Assembly (NCBI GenBank): GCA_947561715.1
Contig: OX387197.1
Span: forward strand, 6,507,001-6,571,000
Reading direction: 5' to 3'
From: Ascidia mentula
Lineage: Eukaryota; Chordata; Ascidiacea; Phlebobranchia; Ascidiidae
Length of the DNA stretch: 64,000 bases
Shown here: positions 11,933 through 64,000 of the stretch, one piece after another
Position numbering within the stretch: the first letter of the stretch is position 1
Layout: every line of letters begins with the position of its first letter
Translations under genes and position numbers: made by a program
Notes under the pieces: model-generated
What the model saw: the letters and a program-made list of their open reading frames with translations, nothing else
What the model was told of the DNA's origin: nothing
Database searches by the model: none

Positions 11933-13468
11933 CTATTTTCGATATGTTATAATGTAAGTCGGATAAGCGCTTGCGTCTTTGAAAATTGCGCATATGCTCG
12001 GATTGCTCACGTTGTCAACGACGCAGTGGTAAGGTGGCACGTGGCGTGGAACGTCCTTTAGTCCTCGTCGACCCTTGCAGTAATTTCCGGTTATAACTTG
12101 GGCAAATATCATCTTACGGACACCGCGATTGTTTGGTTTTGCGAAGCGGTTCGAGTACTTTGTCGTTGTTGAGAAGTAGACGCCATCGCCCAGTAACGTG
12201 CCTGAACAAATTTAATTGAGGTCAAAAAAGACGTACGAAAACCTTGCGTTGTAATTCTGTGTTTTGTAGTGCGTGATATACTGCCGGCGTCTTATCCTCA
12301 GTATGGCCTCTTCAATGGGGCTGATAAGTTTCATGGGAAAAGACATTCACATTATGGTTCACGGTGTAGTGTGAATTTAAAGAAGATTGGTAAAAAATAT
12401 CTGGCGGGTCAATTAAATTCAAGGTTGAAAAATACATTACGCAGTTGTTCCATTTATTTCGGTTATCCTCATACTCTTTATAGCGCATAACTGCTAAACA
12501 AGAGTATTTGATGCACCTGAAAAAGGCAAATGTGTTACTTAAGTACAGAACAAACCGTTTTTCCCGCAGTAACTTCTGTTAAATCCATTAATGCAAATCT
12601 GTTCCACGGATTCCTCGTTAGATCCATGAAAAAGCATTTGGAAAACCGGAACATCCAACACGCCAGTTTGTTCCAGCTGGGTTTCCACAAAATCACACTC
12701 GGCTTCGAATTGCGCCCACAGTCTCCTGTTCATCACCCTTTCAATCTTAAACAACACACAGTGTTGTTGTAACTTGTAAGAGTGTAAGAGTAAAATTCTG
12801 TTATTGGAAATTAATAGACAAAGGTCGCATCAAGCATTTAATTCCGTGAGTATCGTTATAAAGACGTTTTCTGGGGGCGTTTAATTGGAATATTAATGGA
12901 ATAGACTTCTTAGGTATTTGTTGCGAATGGAAAATAACTTTAAATGCACGAAGTAACATATGCAAGGAGTATAACATATGCAATATTCAGACAACCGAAT
13001 ATACTCAGACAACAGAAAAAAAAGCACTAAATATATATCGTATTATTTCACCTCATAGAAAACTAAAATCAACACAACTTCAAAATTTGTTACCTGCAAA
13101 ATTTGTCCATCAAAACCATTGGAAAACTCGTCGCTAACGAACAGAAAATCCTCATCACTTTGATCAACCAACTCACGTTCTAATTCCCCAGATGCATGCG
13201 CCAAGAAACGTTCCAAATATAGGTCTTTTAAAATGTAAATAAGAATAGTAAACATTTTTTGGACTTTTAAGGGAAATAAGCGGGAAATGGTCAAACAGTT
13301 ATGTGCCTATGAAAAATGCTGCAGGCGCGCACGGTTTAAACAACTATATATAGGTTTTAAATGTATAGACCAGTGTTTCTTAATCAAGGGGGATTTACTC
13401 ACTTTCCCGATTTCTTTCTTGTGCTTTCTCCCGTTTGCGCTTCTTAGCTTTTTGCTTGCGAAGTTTCT
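11933..13468 (-). CDS. PARP catalytic domain (mono-ADP-ribosyltransferase type) with basic N-terminal exon
   Basis: Exons on the minus strand: 13468-13403, 13224-13094, 12745-12556, 12201-11933 (stop). The first is Lys/Arg-rich (KLRKQKAKKRKREK). The second ends in SNGFDGQILQ and runs into IERVMNRRLWAQF, the usual start of a PARP fold. Catalytic features are LFHGS (His), GDGVYFSTTTKYS (Tyr), and PSICAIF, where the third triad position is Ile rather than Glu. This H-Y-I pattern is typical of mono-ADP-ribosylating PARPs such as the PARP10 and TIPARP groups. The protein ends AYPTYIITYRK. No good start codon opens the first exon. Its phase-1 acceptor matches the donor that ends the claudin-like unit upstream (13778), so this may be the C-terminal half of a fusion. 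An alternative start lies in the intron-like sequence before 13224. Confidence 0.85.
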
Positions 13469-13777
13469 CTGTCACCGAAGACAGTAATAACACTGTGTAC
13501 TGTTACCTTTCCTACTTAATGTAAGAATCACTATATTTCTCTTTTTTTGAAAAACTATGTTTTAATATCAGTTTAATCTAAACTTCATCCTTGATCAGAC
13601 AATCGATTTAACTTAATTTTCAAATGAATACTTTTGGCAAACACATTAAAAACTCCAATCCTATTCAATTTAATCAAAGACGAAAATTGCAAACAAACAT
13701 ATATAGAATGCTTGCTTGAAATAAAATCTTTTCAACAAACACAGTAGATGATTTTGACAAAATCAAACACTTCTTAC

Positions 13778-14839
13778 CCTTCTCCACGTCTTGTAATAAA
13801 AGTCCTACCCCTGCTGTGTAACACAGTAGAATGCTGGTCACTAACGCGAGGACAACTTTGATGTAGCTTGAACCACGGTACCAGGCAACTCCGAGGCCTT
13901 CCAAACCCTTTGGACTTCCAAACACAGCCACAGCAATTAGGTAGAAAATAGCTGTACATGCAAGAGTTTATGAATAGCGATCAGAACGTACGCACATATC
14001 TGGATTATGCGGTTATCTTCGCTTAGAGCTAGTCTACAAACAAAATATAAGGCATTTCTGTCAACTACAAACGCTCTCTATATATTGTTTATTGTGAACT
14101 TCGTGATGAGAGGAACCTATCCCATATATAGACAACTAAAATAATGGTCAAGGTCGTATGTTTATTCATCGTGCGGACTATGCTAAATGGTGATAAAATG
14201 CATTTTCCCCAGCCTATGTCTGTCAGCCTCTTTAGGACCCAATTTTAAATCGGCAAGAAGAGATCTTCTTGGTACAACTGAATATCGACTAGATTTTCAA
14301 AATGTTTTATGGAATGCACGTACTTGCTAAGACAGTCGAAAGCCACATCAAAATGCTTGCAAAATTCTCCATGTTATCCGTCAAGTAGGACACAAATGAA
14401 ATGCCGGAGACAGACTGGAATATGATGGCAATAAGCAACATGGCTGCAACCGCTTTCCTTGAGTGACTTTGTAAACCTGAAAATTTTATTTAGCTGTAAT
14501 TAAACGGTTTGCATTTCTGCATTTCTAACCCTTTTTTCATAAAATGCACAATGGATGAACTTGCTTGGCTGTTGATGTCATTGCGACCATGTAACGTGTA
14601 TCATATAGTCATGTAATGACTTTTATTAAAATAGAACAAAGTCTTACCATCTGGGATTCCTCCGCATGTATCCCCAATACAGTGTAAGAATAATCCAAGA
14701 TTCTCTGATTCTTCCGAAGCCCAATATGGTAAAATGGCGCCCATCAGGCCAAGTGAAAGTGACATGGCAAGTAGAAGTCCGGTGGTAGCGCAATGTGCCT
14801 CAATTGTCGAATTGCAACACATCGAAGTGAACCTTTTAT
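13778..14839 (-). CDS. claudin-like tetraspan unit B
   Basis: Exons: 14839-14648, 14476-14324, 13951-13778. Exon 1 holds TM1 (LLLAMSLSLGLMGAILPYW) and the claudin first-loop signature W...GLF..C...C. Exon 2 holds TM2 and the start of TM3. Exon 3 completes TM3, a short second loop (SPKGLEGLGVAWYRG) and TM4, then ends QDVEK at a strong donor (ggtaag). If read alone, the start is ATG 14822. However, the exon is open back to an acceptor at 14840 and would accept a phase-1 join from unit A. No normal claudin C-terminus or PDZ-binding end is visible before the donor, so the tail must come from a further exon; the basic exon at 13468-13403 fits. If the donor is not used, the frame runs on to a stop near 13674. 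Confidence 0.8.
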
Positions 14840-15192
14840 CTAAAAAGTCAGCATGTGTTTAAAACAGGAAAGCATAACCAGACCACATGGGAGTCTAAAT
14901 ATGACTTTGTTTGCTTTGAAAGCGGGGTATCCTCACGCAAATACTTGCCCTGTACACTCTCATTTGATCTCAAAAAAGGGTCCTGGTACCAGAAACTTTT
15001 TTTCCTCTCTAGGGCCAAGGATTAAGATTTATATTGTACAAATTATCAAATGGGGGTGTAGAACCTTTCATGTGAACAAATACACATTTTTTTCTCTCTC
15101 AAGAACTCTGGGATAGAGTATACGATGAAACTGGGCCGTTCGTTTAGCAGTCGGAGGCAGACATATTCGACAAGCAATTAAGCAGTGCTTAC

Positions 15193-16153
15193 TTATTTCA
15201 ATATCCCCATCGAATGCTCCGATTGATGCCAGAACCACAGCAACAAAAGCAATGATCATTTCAACGTAACATGCACCACGAAACCACGAATCAGATAAGC
15301 CTTGCAGTCCTTTGGGACTCCCAAATATGGCAACCGCAATCAAATAGAATCCACCTGCATGGAACACGTGGTCATAAAAATGGTTGGGCAAAATATTGTT
15401 TTGTTTAACACTCAGGTTGATTGTTCGATAACCGAGTTACCATTTATGCTAAAACTTAAGTTTCAGACTCAACTAATGAACTAGTATTTAAATTGCTAGT
15501 GATAGGGATTGTGTGACAAGTTGATAAATTCATATTGAGACAAACATAGCAATTAACAACATACACAGCCAAGTACATTACGTGTTTTATTATTTGTTTC
15601 GCTATCGTTTATATATTATGTAACAAAACAACACCTGGTACACATACTTGTCACGATGGAGGTAATGCACATCACAATCCTCAGGTCTTCACTTTTGCTA
15701 CATATGTGTCCAACATAGCAAAACATCGAAGCGAATTGAGAAATAAGACCAAGGATCAACATGGCAGCAACTGCCTTTCTTGCGTGGTTTTGTACATCTA
15801 AGCATAAACTGATAAAATAATAGCTAACATTTATCAGCGGCAGATTCAGAAATTTTCTTTAGGGATTGTAGGTTACTATCCAAAATCATTGTGACGTTAA
15901 TTTATTTCATGACAGTGCTGCCATGTTGATCATTATTTCATGACAGTGCGTTAATACCTGCAGCACTTTCACAACTGCTTCCACTGCACTTTAGGAAAAG
16001 CCCAAGGGTGTTGTTCGACGATCCTTCCCACGCCCACTGCGGTGAGATGGCTGCAGTCATGGCAAGCACAAGAGAAACCATCAAGCACATCCCAGTGCAA
16101 ATAATGCGTGGATTTTTTGACATTATGTATTTTTCTGTTTCTAGAACATACAT
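15193..16153 (-). CDS. claudin-like tetraspan unit A
   Basis: Exons: 16153-15958, 15797-15648, 15354-15193. It has the same exon plan as unit B. Exon 1 starts MYVLETEKYIMSKNPRII with TM1 and the W...GLF..C...C first-loop signature. Exon 2 has the shared HARKAVAAMLI motif (HSRKAVAAMLL in B) and TM2. Exon 3 has FYLIAVAIFGSPKGLQGL and TM4, ending GDIEI at a phase-1 donor (agtaagc). Unit B starts 350 bp downstream with no AATAAA or ATTAAA between. Either unit A splices into unit B as one eight-helix protein, or the two are tandem claudin genes with unrecognised tail exons. Membrane and junction location is inferred from the family. Confidence 0.8.
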
Positions 16154-16905: not shown

Positions 16906-17320
16906 AAGGTTCACAGGCTTCGCAGCCAAGGCATTGCAGCCAAGCTGGATCAGCCACTTTTCCCGATAAGTCGGAGCGAGATCTAAAAAATCAAGCTCCC
17001 GGTGAGGTTTGAACCTACGACCCTGGGCTAACCAGGCCCAACGCTCAACCAACTGAGCAACAGGAGCTCAGTGGCTTCACGGGGTATATTGTGGCCAAGG
17101 TACACTGGTGCGCAAATGCACAACTTGTCAGGCGAACTTCACATACGTAGAGGATCTCCACCACCGTAATCAGACAACGCAGAAGTAATGCCATGCTTAC
17201 GCATAGCAAGGCGGGATCGCCCCACTGCGCGATCAGAATATTAGAGCTGTGATCGCCAAATTTAAAGGGCCTGCGCAGTGGGGCGATCCCGCCTTGCTAT
17301 GCGTAAGCATGGCATTACTC
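16906..17320 (-). mobile_element. tRNA-derived SINE with 13-bp target-site duplication
   Basis: It is flanked by perfect copies of CTCTTAGGGCTAT at 16893-16905 and 17321-17333. A 13-bp duplication suits LINE-type retroposition. On the minus strand the body has an A-box-like TTGCTCAGTTGG and a B-box-like GGTTCAAACC within a tRNA-like stretch at about 16995-17070. The 5' end carries the 47-bp hairpin listed separately. It belongs with the copies at 7016 and 47882; a composite SINE has been described in Ciona, but assignment to it is unchecked. Confidence 0.75.
17184..17319. repeat. perfect 47-bp inverted repeat (hairpin) inside the SINE
   Basis: 17184-17230 and 17273-17319 are exact reverse complements, with a 42-bp spacer. 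The arm includes GCGGGATCGCCCCACTGCGC; close relatives occur at about 7318-7342 and 29110. Exact arms suggest a recent event or gene conversion. Confidence 0.9.
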
Positions 17321-17333
17321 CTCTTAGGGCTAT

Positions 17334-44277: not shown

Positions 44278-45231
44278 TTAAACGTGCTTTTCCGTGTAGG
44301 TTTGCTTAGAGGAGACTTGTGAGGGAGTTGGAAATGCCTCAACTCTTTCGGAAACAGTATTCGGACGTACTCGTGTTCCCATCCGCAAACCCAACCGTTT
44401 CCGAAAGTCTTTGAACGTCAACAATGTGCAAACGCTCTTTAAAACGAGGTTGTAGGTGTATAAAATGAGAAAAAGCGACACCGGAATCCACAGTTTGCTC
44501 AACATGGTAATAACAGCACCAACAACAAGAAAAATGATGTCGTTGGCCACAGTGAAGATCGTCAGACTACTGGTCTTTACGACAATACGAGCCAAATCGC
44601 GGCGACCACTAAGCGGATCCATTGCAAGGGACAACAGAACGAGTTCAGCTGTTAAAAACAATACAACAGCAAGGCCTAAGGGCCAACGTGGCAACGATTT
44701 TGGTATTTTGCATCCATCAGGAGCTGTTTCGTGACGACTGAGAAACGCCAAAGACAACTCAATGGTGACGTTTGCTAAGTTTGCCGCACAGGCAACAAGC
44801 TTGAGGCATTTGTTGGTGCAAATCTTAAATGCTGTTTGATATGAAGTGTTGTTGGATCGCAGCGTGCTCATTCTGAACCAGAGAACAAAAAAAATACAAG
44901 ACTTGCAAAGAGAGGTGCAAAAGTAGGCAAACCATTTCTGAAGGTCGCAGACGATTGTGGACGTCTTCTTCGGATAAACCACAGGTACGAAACTTAACGC
45001 TATCAGCAGCTGTGACAGAGCTACCAATGTACACAGTCGATTTGTCCAAAGCAGTGTATGTCGTTGCGGCTGCAATTGGTAGATGACGGAGCAACAGAAT
45101 AAATATAAGGTAACAGCACACAACGGTGGCACAAGAAATGCTTCGACGTAGAGCGATGTGAATGGAATGTGCGTGCCGTTTGTCATTTCCCGTATAGTTC
45201 TGCTTTCCAATATGCTGTCATTCAGGGACAT
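44278..45231 (-). CDS. intronless 7TM receptor-like protein, copy 1
   Basis: The single exon codes 317 residues with seven hydrophobic helices: ~30-50, ~61-87, ~95-122, ~143-165, ~182-203, ~215-245 and ~250-275. The N-terminus has an N-glycosylation site (NGTH). A Cys begins TM3 (CDLQKWF). A basic segment after TM7 (FKDFRKRLGLRMGTR) resembles helix 8 of G-protein-coupled receptors, followed by a Ser/Thr tail. There is no clear DRY or NPxxY motif, so I call it 7TM receptor-like only; it may be a tunicate-specific family. The mirror copy is at 54106-55035. Confidence 0.8.
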   Translation of the reverse strand: MSLNDSILESRTIREMTNGTHIPFTSLYVEAFLVPPLCAVTLYLFCCSVIYQLQPQRHTLLWTNRLCTLVALSQLLIALSFVPVVYPKKTSTIVCDLQKWFAYFCTSLCKSCIFFVLWFRMSTLRSNNTSYQTAFKICTNKCLKLVACAANLANVTIELSLAFLSRHETAPDGCKIPKSLPRWPLGLAVVLFLTAELVLLSLAMDPLSGRRDLARIVVKTSSLTIFTVANDIIFLVVGAVITMLSKLWIPVSLFLILYTYNLVLKSVCTLLTFKDFRKRLGLRMGTRVRPNTVSERVEAFPTPSQVSSKQTYTEKHV

Positions 45232-53569: not shown

Positions 53570-55035
53570 TGTAGCATATGTTATTGGTGGTTTAATCCAA
53601 CACGGTAATATACACCACCGTTTGCGAACTATGTACGTGCGTTTACAATGGACAGGGTTATGGCAATTACACAGACATATGATAGCATTTAAACCACGAA
53701 GTGCCTTTTGCCACCTGTTTCCAAAACGACCGTTAAATAGCCGGGAATTGTATCGCAATGCAGTTCAGGTCGTAGAAGCAGCGAGCTGCATTTAATCAAC
53801 TGCGTTCACTTTATGTGTCGAAAATCTGGGTTTAAATTATTAAATCCTGGTTGCTTCTTCATCAGAAGAATGCTAACAGTATAAATTAAAACGTGAATGC
53901 AAGTAAACTCCAGGATTTGTTACATGTAGTAGCATCAGGTGATATTAGCTTGGTTAATCGCTGTGAACTTAAGTTTGCAGGTAAGCAAAAAATAATATTA
54001 TGCAATAGTAATACCGTAAACAATAGGAAAATGTTAAACGCTACTTTCAAAGCTTTTTGACATATACACTACAGGTCAAAATCATATGCATAATCTTAAG
54101 ACACGATGTCCCTGAATGTCAGTATATTGGAAAACAGAACTATAACTGAAATGACAAACGGCACGCACATTCCATTCAGATCGCTCAACGTCGAAGCATT
54201 TCTTGTGCCACCGTTGTGTGCTGTTACCTTATATTTATTCTGTTGTTCCGTCATCTACCAATTGCAGCCGCAACGAAACACACTGCTTTGGACAAACCGA
54301 CTGTGCATATCAGTAGCTCTCTTACAGCTGCTGACAGCGTTAAGTTTCGTACCTGTTGTGTATCCAAAGAAGACTAACCAAACCGTCTGCGACCTTCAGA
54401 AACGTTTTTCCCATGTTTGCACTACGCTTTGCAGGTTCTCAATATTTCTTATTCTTTGGTTCAGAGTGAGCACCATTCAGACCAACAACACTTCAGGTCA
54501 AACAGCACTGAAGAAATTCACCACCAAATGCCTCAAATTTGTTGCATGTGCGGCAAACTTCGCAAGCGTTACCATTGCGTTGTCTTTCGCCTTGCTCGCC
54601 GGTTTCAATGCAGCTACTGATAAATGCAAAACACCAGAATCGTTTCCACTTTTGCCCTTAGGTCTTTATATTTCATTGTTAATAACGTCTGAACTCGTAT
54701 TATTAGCTCTCGCAATGGGTCCACTTATTGGCCGCAGCGACTTGTCATTCATTGTCATAAAGATCAGTAGTCTGACGATCTTCACCGTGGTTAACGACAT
54801 CTTGTTTCTGGTGGCGAGCGGGGTGATCGCCGTGTTCGGCAGGGCTTCCGCTTCTTTCTTTCTCATTTTCTACACCTACAACCTCGTTTTAAAGAGCGTT
54901 TGCACATTGTTGTCGTTCAAAGACTTTCGGAAACGGTTGGGTTTGCGAATGGGAACACGAGTACGTCCGAATACTGTTTCAGAAAGAGTTGAGGAATTTC
55001 CAACTCCTGCACAAGTCTCCCCGAAGCAAACCTAA
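53570..55035 (+). repeat. inverted duplication, right arm
   Basis: It mirrors 44278-45790, with similarity in both the 7TM gene and its upstream 500 bp. The upstream parts look roughly 75-80% alike by eye. Confidence 0.8.
54106..55035 (+). CDS. intronless 7TM receptor-like protein, copy 2
   Basis: The single exon codes 309 residues, about 75% identical to copy 1. The N-terminal ~85 residues and the C-terminal ~60 (YTYNLVLKSVCTLL, FKDFRKRLGLRMGTR) are nearly the same; the middle, TM3 to TM6, is much more diverged. The N-terminus has three N-glycosylation sites (NVS, NRT, NGTH) where copy 1 has one. It is two residues shorter between TM6 and TM7 and ends KQT, lacking the last few residues of copy 1. 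The function is unknown; a chemosensory or peptide receptor is possible but unsupported. Confidence 0.8.
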   Translation: MSLNVSILENRTITEMTNGTHIPFRSLNVEAFLVPPLCAVTLYLFCCSVIYQLQPQRNTLLWTNRLCISVALLQLLTALSFVPVVYPKKTNQTVCDLQKRFSHVCTTLCRFSIFLILWFRVSTIQTNNTSGQTALKKFTTKCLKFVACAANFASVTIALSFALLAGFNAATDKCKTPESFPLLPLGLYISLLITSELVLLALAMGPLIGRSDLSFIVIKISSLTIFTVVNDILFLVASGVIAVFGRASASFFLIFYTYNLVLKSVCTLLSFKDFRKRLGLRMGTRVRPNTVSERVEEFPTPAQVSPKQT

Positions 55036-62650: not shown

Positions 62651-64000
62651 TCAATCAGTTTTAGTTTTTGTGTCTGAATCATCAAAATCTTTTTTCCTAA
62701 TTCTCATAATTGCATATCGCAAAGACAATAGGATAGGCAGACTAATAGGCAAAAACAACGGAATGTAAATGGCAAATTTCTGGTCCTCTGGAAAGTAGAG
62801 CAATTCTAATAAAGTTGAATCAAAAAATGCTGTTTCAGATGCAACAAATGCTGTTTTGGAGTGTTCAAGTGCTAGCTCCAGCTTGCCGATTGCCAGCGCC
62901 TCTTTAGCTTTTAAAATAGACAGCACAGATGTGTGAACTTCAGTGGCAATGTTGTCATTGATCACAATGTTGTGAATCTGGTTAAGAAGTTTTGACAGAG
63001 AATGCAAGGTCTGAATAGATGAAGCTATGTGTTCCACTGCTCTTAACCTGTACAAGTAAGCCAGTTCCCAATCACAAATGTTTTCATAGCTGGGCTCAGA
63101 AAACTTGATGTGTTCATCCAGAGTGTTGTTGTTTTGCAAGCCAAGCAAAATCCGCAAATGGGGAATAAAAGCACTCATAAACACACCTGGGTCAAGTTTG
63201 ACCACATTGTTCGGTCCAGGGTTATTTTCCAAGTTATAAAACTGCATCGAACCCCATCTTGGAACCAAAAATGCATTGCTGCTTGACAATTCCCCGTTTT
63301 CTTTCCTTACATAAAGGGGTGTGTAATTTTTCTCCGTGACATATACAACAAAATTCAGAGTTGGATCAGTGGCAACGTGAGAGCCTAAGCGTCCTTCTAT
63401 AGGGTTTATCACCAACGACAGTTGCTGGGGTGTAAGAAATCGATACAACACTTTATTGTTGTCATCCCTGTGTGCTTTGGGCTTGTAAGGTATCTTGGTA
63501 TAGTAGAGAACTTGAGAACCGACATGAAAATCGAACAGCTTGTCCAGTTTTCTTAACATTGGAGAAAGATACTGTTCAGAATTACGTGCCATGTCCCAAG
63601 TAGCCGACTGCACATCAGGCTCTGGGCAGAGCAAGGAGAAAAGTAGCTCAAATTTAGGGTTAGCCTGAACCATTTGTATGAGCTTGCTGTTGTAACGTTC
63701 ATCCTTGACTGTTCGGTATATGTTCCCAACCATGTGATCAACAACTACTTCATTTACAACCACTTCCTTGATGGTACGCCTCAAAAGTGATGATACTTTC
63801 ACAATTGTACCTTTATCCTTGTTTGGTATATTGCAAGCGATTGTACCATCATCAGAAACTTGGACAAGCAGCGGACCCTCAGTACGAACCATAACATGCA
63901 CAGCACTTTTATCCAGAACCAAACTTGCATCATGTGTGTCTTTTATTTTATAGAAGAACTTTACTTGTTGTGTATTGTCATTATTTAACTGTTCACTTAG
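62651..64000 (-). CDS. PIGS: PIGS, GPI-transamidase subunit (C-terminal part)
   Basis: One long exon codes 449 residues to the stop and stays open to the window edge, so the N-terminal part (about 100 residues, with the first membrane helix) lies outside. Family marks are the lumenal segments RFLTPQQLSLVINPIEGRLG and LNFVVYV, then VPRWGSMQFYN, then DPGVFMSAFIPHLRILLGL. A C-terminal membrane helix (FAIYIPLFLPISLPILLSL) is followed by a short basic cytosolic tail. PIGS works in the endoplasmic reticulum with PIGK, PIGT, PIGU and GPAA1 to attach GPI anchors to proteins. It lies upstream of BRF2 on the same strand. Confidence 0.93.
   Translation of the reverse strand, partial: LSEQLNNDNTQQVKFFYKIKDTHDASLVLDKSAVHVMVRTEGPLLVQVSDDGTIACNIPNKDKGTIVKVSSLLRRTIKEVVVNEVVVDHMVGNIYRTVKDERYNSKLIQMVQANPKFELLFSLLCPEPDVQSATWDMARNSEQYLSPMLRKLDKLFDFHVGSQVLYYTKIPYKPKAHRDDNNKVLYRFLTPQQLSLVINPIEGRLGSHVATDPTLNFVVYVTEKNYTPLYVRKENGELSSSNAFLVPRWGSMQFYNLENNPGPNNVVKLDPGVFMSAFIPHLRILLGLQNNNTLDEHIKFSEPSYENICDWELAYLYRLRAVEHIASSIQTLHSLSKLLNQIHNIVINDNIATEVHTSVLSILKAKEALAIGKLELALEHSKTAFVASETAFFDSTLLELLYFPEDQKFAIYIPLFLPISLPILLSLRYAIMRIRKKDFDDSDTKTKTD

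Follow-up and report, generated by a model that had tools for sequence, protein, structure and literature searches.

Tandem claudin-type units joined to PARP or RING effectors: a candidate gene family in the ascidian Ascidia mentula

Exons for two claudin-like membrane units and for a PARP catalytic domain follow one another on the minus strand of Ascidia mentula contig OX387197.1, at positions 11933..16153 of a 64,000-nucleotide stretch (contig positions 6,507,001 to 6,571,000, hereafter the window). Does this locus encode three adjacent proteins, two, or a single membrane protein that carries an enzyme? As judged from the sequence, the answer that we favour, with a probability of about 0.83, is a single gene for a protein of about 550 residues, in which tandem claudin units are followed by a linker and a cytosolic PARP, within a family whose members would differ in their effectors.

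Exon structure and domain content of the window locus

Rebuilding of the gene model gave ten minus-strand exons with a total of 1,683 nt (560 codons plus a stop) and GT-AG boundaries at every intron, exactly reproducing the ten exons in one frame and the 560 residues of the original prediction. All exon joins are in phase 1, with the sole exception of P2/P3, which is in phase 0. Unit A is encoded by exon A1 (15958..16153), which contains the cytosolic N terminus, the first transmembrane helix (TM1), and the first part of extracellular loop 1 (GLF..C....C); exon A2 (15648..15797, phase 1 at both ends), with TM2 and the motif ARKAVAAML; and exon A3 (15193..15354), with TM3, loop 2, and TM4, stop-free up to a phase-1 donor. 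After a gap of 353 nt, exon B1 (14648..14839) offers a phase-1 acceptor and provides the cytosolic join and TM1 of unit B, followed by B2 (14324..14476), with TM2, and B3 (13778..13951), with TM3, loop 2, TM4, and another phase-1 donor. This donor would be taken, 309 nt further on and as had been claimed, by the basic linker exon P1 (13403..13468; 22 codons, 66 nt, without Met), in phase 1 at both ends. The catalytic part is completed by P2 (13094..13224; 131 nt, phase 1 in and phase 0 out, without Met), P3 (12556..12745), covering the first half of the PARP domain with the His of HGS, and P4 (11933..12201), covering the second half (GVYFS, YIITY) and the stop.

Regarding the possible starts, the ATG at 16153, proposed as the initiation codon, is in the reading frame 57 nt from the TM1 motif, and a second ATG, at 16123, lies 27 nt from it. 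Because the ATG nearest the TM1 motif sits 21–36 nt before the motif in the relatives described below, 16123 is the likelier start. The proposal that the first exon of unit B accepts unit A held with respect to its phase-1 acceptor, but unit B also has an in-frame ATG of its own (14822, 17 nt after the acceptor), absent at most relatives, and therefore, from the window alone, unit B could in principle start by itself. The PARP part, described as having no good start, indeed shows its first Met only from exon P3 on, inside the catalytic domain. The same claudin-then-PARP order recurs on one strand at other loci and, given this recurrence, the arrangement in the window can be regarded as more than chance.

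Eight non-overlapping 19-residue segments with a Kyte–Doolittle average of at least 1.5 were found in the window protein, four for each of the two claimed four-helix units, and four per unit were likewise counted in a RING-bearing relative (locus G, below). Matches to the Pfam family PMP22_Claudin passed the cut-off for unit A (1.4e-6) and fell below it for unit B alone (0.0098); among 20 claudin units of the family, 12 matched with an E-value of 0.1 or better. A profile built from these 20 units matched LHFPL5 (5.6e-4), MOSMO (7e-4), and LHFPL4 (0.0035) and, weakly, calcium-channel gamma-1 (0.043). Like the claudin/PMP22/EMP/LHFPL superfamily (PF00822, PF13903, PF10242), the units have four helices each, the pattern W..GLF..C....C in loop 1, and an Arg before TM2. 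In contrast to it, they come as two units per chain with a Cys spacing of 4, no C-terminal tail of their own was seen, and an enzyme or a RING is fused to them. Classical claudins carry the loop signature W-GLW-C-C, with 8–10 residues between the Cys, and end in a C-terminal PDZ-binding tail. That signature is absent from the 20 aligned units, which show GLF (GVL in locus cl4) and the spacing of 4, apart from unit B of locus D, where both Cys are missing, and cl4, where one is. Of the 26 matches with E-values up to 0.1 that the PF00822 profile gave in the A. mentula genome, none fell in the four clusters where the claudin units described here are located, so this exon-by-exon search misses the claudin-head family itself.

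The identification of a PARP catalytic domain after the basic linker was confirmed by a Pfam PARP match of 4.8e-18, which passes the cut-off. Its closest solved relatives are PARP10 (6.8e-28), PARP14 (8.7e-26), and PARP15 (6.9e-23). The PARP catalytic triad includes a third position whose residue type bears on mono- rather than poly-ADP-ribosylation; here, the catalytic His (HGS) and Tyr (GVYFS) are kept, and the third position aligns as a hydrophobic residue, like that of PARP10. Thus, the enzyme is a predicted mono-ADP-ribosyltransferase of the PARP10/14/15 type. The likeness to these proteins extends over the catalytic domain, locus D aligning with PARP15 from the start of P2, whereas a claudin head replaces their N-terminal domains, although the two contig C2 loci described below seem to keep a macro domain. 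To our knowledge, no human protein of this group is a membrane protein with eight helices.

Related loci in the same genome

The search for relatives covered a single 195.8-Mb assembly, in which the contigs concerned were labelled C1 (the one holding the window, whose locus is called W), C2, and C70. With the PARP part as query, at least 111 exon matches were obtained, at least about 55 of them covering the last exon. With unit B, the 58 matches listed were all in four clusters, at C1:4.35–4.41, C1:6.52, C2:7.19–7.22, and C70:3.75–3.86 Mb, and each of these clusters also contains PARP matches. For the other PARP matches, no claudin match was listed nearby in the claudin searches, and a scan of C70:3490237–3500523 found PARP exons and no claudin unit.

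Outside the window, spliced alignment of the fusion protein recovered 11 loci with one or two claudin units followed by PARP in the same orientation, which makes 12 when the window locus is included. Four are located on C1: cl1 (4374–4370 kb), cl2 (4384–4380 kb), and cl3 (4391–4387 kb), each with head and PARP, and cl4 (about 4411–4414 kb), with head and PARP but a poor first half. On C2, locus C2a (7193.8–7188.8 kb) has a diverged first unit, macro-like exons, and PARP, and C2b (7218.6–7214.3 kb) has a double head, macro-like exons, and PARP. The remaining five are on C70: D (3757–3752 kb), F (3774–3778 kb), H (3799–3791 kb), and J (3862–3858 kb), all with head and PARP, and E (3746–3749 kb), with a single claudin unit and PARP. 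In addition, a double-claudin head is joined to a RING at loci G (C70:3786668–3789249) and I (C70:3851213–3853880), and a further double-claudin head, cl0, was found with no effector. Altogether, the loci with a claudin head and an effector can be described as one gene family in this genome.

Start codons, exon joins, and competing explanations

Independent genes would be expected to carry starts of their own, and these were sought by walking upstream in frame from the TM1 motif of each claudin unit toward the acceptor. An in-frame ATG was found in 13 out of 13 first units (W, cl0, cl1, cl2, cl3, C2b, D, E, F, G, H, I, and J) and, between acceptor and TM1, in only 2 out of 13 second units (W and cl3; Fisher test against first units, 2e-5); the same interval contained no ATG in the second units of cl0, cl1, cl2, C2a, C2b, D, F, G, H, I, and J. 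The lone unit of E was assigned to the first units on account of its grouping with unit A of D (98/97). Two units were left out of the count: the second of cl4, for which there is no clear model, and the first of C2a, which is diverged and whose first exon was not found. After merging the near-duplicates G/I, H/J, and cl2/cl3, the proportions were 10 out of 10 and 3 out of 10 (0.003).

At the other end of the units, a phase-1 GT donor in open frame follows TM4 in all 27 third exons listed, some of these donors being weak; from this result alone, a classical-type tail on an unseen exon may still exist. As a control, two standalone single claudin relatives (C1:4353.7–4352.2 and C1:4359.2–4358.2 kb) have a stop directly after TM4, and one of them carries an ATG of its own, with an AATAAA shortly downstream of the stop. 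A third unit in the same region, on the plus strand of C1:4352–4359 kb, has a phase-1 donor as in the fused units. The join between units reads FLFN-G|gt in cl1, leading into a B1 exon without in-frame Met. In C2b, the B1 acceptor is in phase 0, and a ten-codon exon readable between A3 and B1 would turn the phase 1 of A3 into the phase 0 of B1.

Downstream of the head, the linker exons of W, D, E, F, G, and I have phase-1 boundaries on both sides and vary greatly in length. Their starts look alike by eye in D (NQSDERLMDND), E (NRQDESRRRLLAEN), and F (GFKDDERSRLLENDPE), and these similar stretches precede the first Met, if there is any. In E, a phase-1 linker without Met is read after the lone claudin unit. 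W, cl1, D, F, and H share a P2 exon of 131 nt with a phase-1 acceptor, the length being different in the other models; no Met is present in P2 of W, cl1, and C2a. In locus D, the alignment with PARP15 structures begins at the second residue of P2, before the Met that P2 carries there; this Met therefore lies within the domain, and P2 is coding sequence right from its acceptor. Regarding alternative first exons, no ATG-led exon with a phase-1 donor (score at least 1.5) was found in either of the window introns between parts, and candidates appeared in 1 out of 11 A3–B1 introns and 2 out of 7 B3–linker introns tested. Start codons, linkers, the coding of P2, alternative first exons, and standalone relatives thus all support reading the locus as a fusion of two claudin units and a PARP, and they are independent of phase, which answers the caution of the original prediction that the fit of phases was partly to be expected.

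Several observations weigh against this conclusion. The second units of W and cl3 do have an ATG, and those of H and J have one in open frame upstream of the chosen acceptor, which if counted in would raise the number to 4 out of 13 (5e-4). The linkers of D, H, and J contain Met, and an in-frame Met is found at one place in 9 out of 12 P2 exons, preceded three residues earlier by a Trp in 9 out of 9, so that a PARP starting at this Met is conceivable at nine loci, though not at W, cl1, or C2a. In principle, a spliced leader could also be added at the acceptors of B1 and P1. Some models are also imperfect: cl4 lacks a clear first unit and E has only one, the model of H spans a long intron containing undetermined letters, the joining of the macro exons is incomplete in C2a and C2b, and J, whose B2 is decayed and whose linker acceptor is out of phase, may be a pseudogene. 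Finally, the evidence is the genomic sequence of one genome, with joins checked by eye at a minority of the loci.

Among the competing explanations, the one that survives best is that both kinds of product are made, intron read-through after A3 or B3 giving short claudin-only proteins and full splicing giving the fusion. Past both donors of the window, some tens of codons do remain open before a stop is reached; no resemblance was apparent by eye, however, among the read-through tails of the relatives, and we consider this mixed output unlikely.

Less credible still is a division in which units A and B form one double-claudin protein and PARP has its own gene, which would begin with a first exon that escaped detection or, at the loci where it is present, at the Met of P2. 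Double-claudin heads without PARP do occur (cl0, G, and I), most PARP matches have no claudin match nearby, and the Met present in most P2 exons would provide a start. Against this stand the three P2 exons without Met, W among them, the PARP15 alignment that places this Met inside the domain in D, the lack of an ATG-led phase-1-donor exon in the B3–P1 intron of the window (despite the two candidates among the seven such introns), and the Met-free linker of E; moreover, a separate PARP gene would leave the head without a known 3′ end.

A more radical division would make claudin A, claudin B, and PARP three adjacent genes of an operon split by spliced-leader trans-splicing, a process common in Ciona. 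The C. intestinalis spliced leader is a 16-nt sequence (PMC7986045), and this sequence followed by GT gave 1070 and 1253 matches in the A. mentula genome with up to one mismatch, against 0 and 1 in the reversed control. More than 2,000 copies are thus present genome-wide, and a tandem array with a period of about 720 bp was observed at C1:15.24–15.29 Mb. In three copies that were read, the Sm motif AGCTTTGG was not seen in the bases shown, so not every copy need be a working spliced-leader gene. Even so, trans-splicing is a real rival in this genome, and the ATG of unit B in the window, 17 nt after the acceptor, is what such a rival would predict. For C. intestinalis operons, PMC7986045 gives a median intercistronic distance of 1 bp, 1,128 out of the 1,172 predicted operons being kept at 1 bp or less, and PMC2760879 agrees. 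In an operon, a poly(A) site would therefore be expected beside the acceptor, but the gaps of 353 and 309 nt in the window do not abut in this way, and AATAAA or ATTAAA appears in the last 60 nt of just 1 out of 18 introns tested, neither of the two in the window among them. The missing ATG in 11 out of 13 second units and the lack of Met before exon P3 in the window PARP also oppose it. Three findings accordingly disfavour separate genes in an operon, which we regard as highly improbable: start codons are missing, no alternative first exons were found in the window, and poly(A) signals are lacking at the acceptors.

The density of poly(A) signals was tried as a test of fusion and dropped, which also counts against the single-gene reading, since the values do not discriminate: AATAAA or ATTAAA occurred 3.05 times per kb in 11 A3–B1 introns, 0.89 in seven B3–linker introns, 3.75 in ten 3′ flanks, and 1.87 in the window background (the 3′ flank of H was left out, and the H intron has undetermined letters). 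Neither hexamer was found within 400 nt after the stop of the window gene itself, which weakens any argument from poly(A) signals. Least probable of all is that the window locus is an unexpressed, decaying duplicate: family members do decay, as seen in J and in locus K, with one exon found in 5.5 kb, but the window keeps 560 open codons, GT-AG introns, and the His and Tyr of the catalytic motifs.

Possible effector exchange, family history, and proposed function

The two RING loci, G and I, share a double-claudin head, a 135-nt phase-1 linker without Met, a complete C3HC4 RING, and a terminal RMRIYT-stop. Spliced G encodes 427 residues with eight hydrophobic segments and a RING match of 3.8e-13 in Pfam. 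Between the two loci, the 427 codons are open throughout without any exon indel, whereas six out of seven introns differ in length, and identity is 94–98% in exons and 80–97% in introns. The ratio of nonsynonymous to synonymous substitution rates (dN/dS) was 0.68 overall, 0.55 in unit B, and 0.27 in the RING exon; it exceeded 1 in unit A (1.46) and the linker (1.27) on few changes, so purifying selection on this pair is supported weakly. G and I thereby resemble RING E3 ligases with membrane domains, which share the complete C3HC4 RING, and differ in having a double claudin as their membrane part. RING exons of this type were also observed at C70:3744034–3744108 and C70:3764502–3764576, with no claudin head in the DNA examined upstream.

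A third arrangement appears on C2. The pieces between head and PARP in C2b matched macro domains in Pfam with E-values of 0.0014–0.0027, below the cut-off, and the PARP14 macro domain in the PDB with 0.015; the corresponding piece of C2a gave no Pfam match up to 0.1. Both loci probably carry a macro domain before PARP.

Trees of A units and of B units agree among F, G, H, and I, which indicates that the pair was copied as a whole in these loci. In the complete set of 25 rows, A units are not monophyletic, nor are B units, and the A and B units of C2b group together. Heads and effectors follow different lines: the heads of cl2 and cl3 are near-identical, while the PARP of cl2 groups with that of cl1 (100/100) and the PARP of cl3 with those of cl4 and an unheaded PARP (100/98). 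Similarly, the A units of H and J are near-identical, and the PARP of J groups with that of F (100/100) while that of H stands apart; the head of F, in turn, is sister to those of the RING loci G and I. In a PARP tree of 30 rows, the 12 headed rows require four label changes, which suggests that the head was gained or lost more than once. Different effectors are thus seen to sit under near-identical heads as the models stand, although gene conversion of heads would give the same pattern as an exchange of effectors, and the models of H and J carry the caveats mentioned above.

These observations are consistent with a head of eight helices, two claudin-superfamily four-helix units in tandem with both ends cytosolic, joined through phase-1 introns to an ADP-ribosyltransferase, apparently to a macro domain plus ADP-ribosyltransferase, or to a RING. 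Claudin-type units have both ends in the cytosol, so the enzyme would lie under the membrane with the loops outside. If the spliced mRNA is expressed and this topology holds in the cell, the paired units may function as a single head, contacting either a microbe or a partner that sits in its own membrane or in an adjacent one. Clustering could then activate the mono-ADP-ribosyltransferase or localise it at sub-membrane substrates and, in the RING sisters, lead to ubiquitylation under the membrane. From its sequence, the family looks like a previously unknown one of surface receptors. More tentatively, and with somewhat less than even odds, it would be a modular one, in which the effector under a claudin-pair head is exchanged by phase-1 exon shuffling, serving rapidly duplicating surface recognition, perhaps in immunity or in the distinction between self and non-self.

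Among known membrane-associated PARPs, PARP16/ARTD15 is likewise membrane-tethered with a cytosolic catalytic domain. It belongs to another PARP clade and, in contrast to the claudin head found here, it has a single C-terminal tail anchor in the endoplasmic reticulum, PMC3372510 calling it the only ARTD with one. A sponge PARP (PMC4245714) resembles the proteins described here in having a transmembrane domain N-terminal to its PARP domain, but no tandem four-helix head is described for it, and the word claudin is absent from the portion of that text consulted. No report of a claudin–PARP protein was found in the material returned by our searches of the PMC literature, none of which combined claudin with RING. 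Ciona databases may well contain automatic gene models for these loci.

If an mRNA of the structure read here is produced, a membrane fold of the junction type would have been turned into a receptor–enzyme family in the closest invertebrate relatives of the vertebrates, and would represent a case of effector exchange under a constant head. PARP14-type ADP-ribosylation, tied to interferon biology in mammals, would then be wired directly to a cell-surface head, and ligand or contact would be predicted to control mono-ADP-ribosylation or ubiquitylation under the membrane.

Other features were noted in the window. At 16994–17322, a tRNA-like sequence (Rfam RF00005) lies beside a 50-nt inverted repeat with 98% complementarity, which together look like a tRNA-derived mobile element; by eye, a similar stretch seems to be present in the B3–linker intron of E. 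Two open reading frames in opposite orientation, 44278–45231 (minus strand, 317 aa) and 54106–55035 (plus strand, 309 aa), are similar to each other and rich in hydrophobic segments, and look like candidate duplicates of the G-protein-coupled receptor type. Finally, positions 62651–63922 of the minus strand contain an open reading frame of 423 aa, which we take to be a putative PIG-S from its resemblance to that protein.

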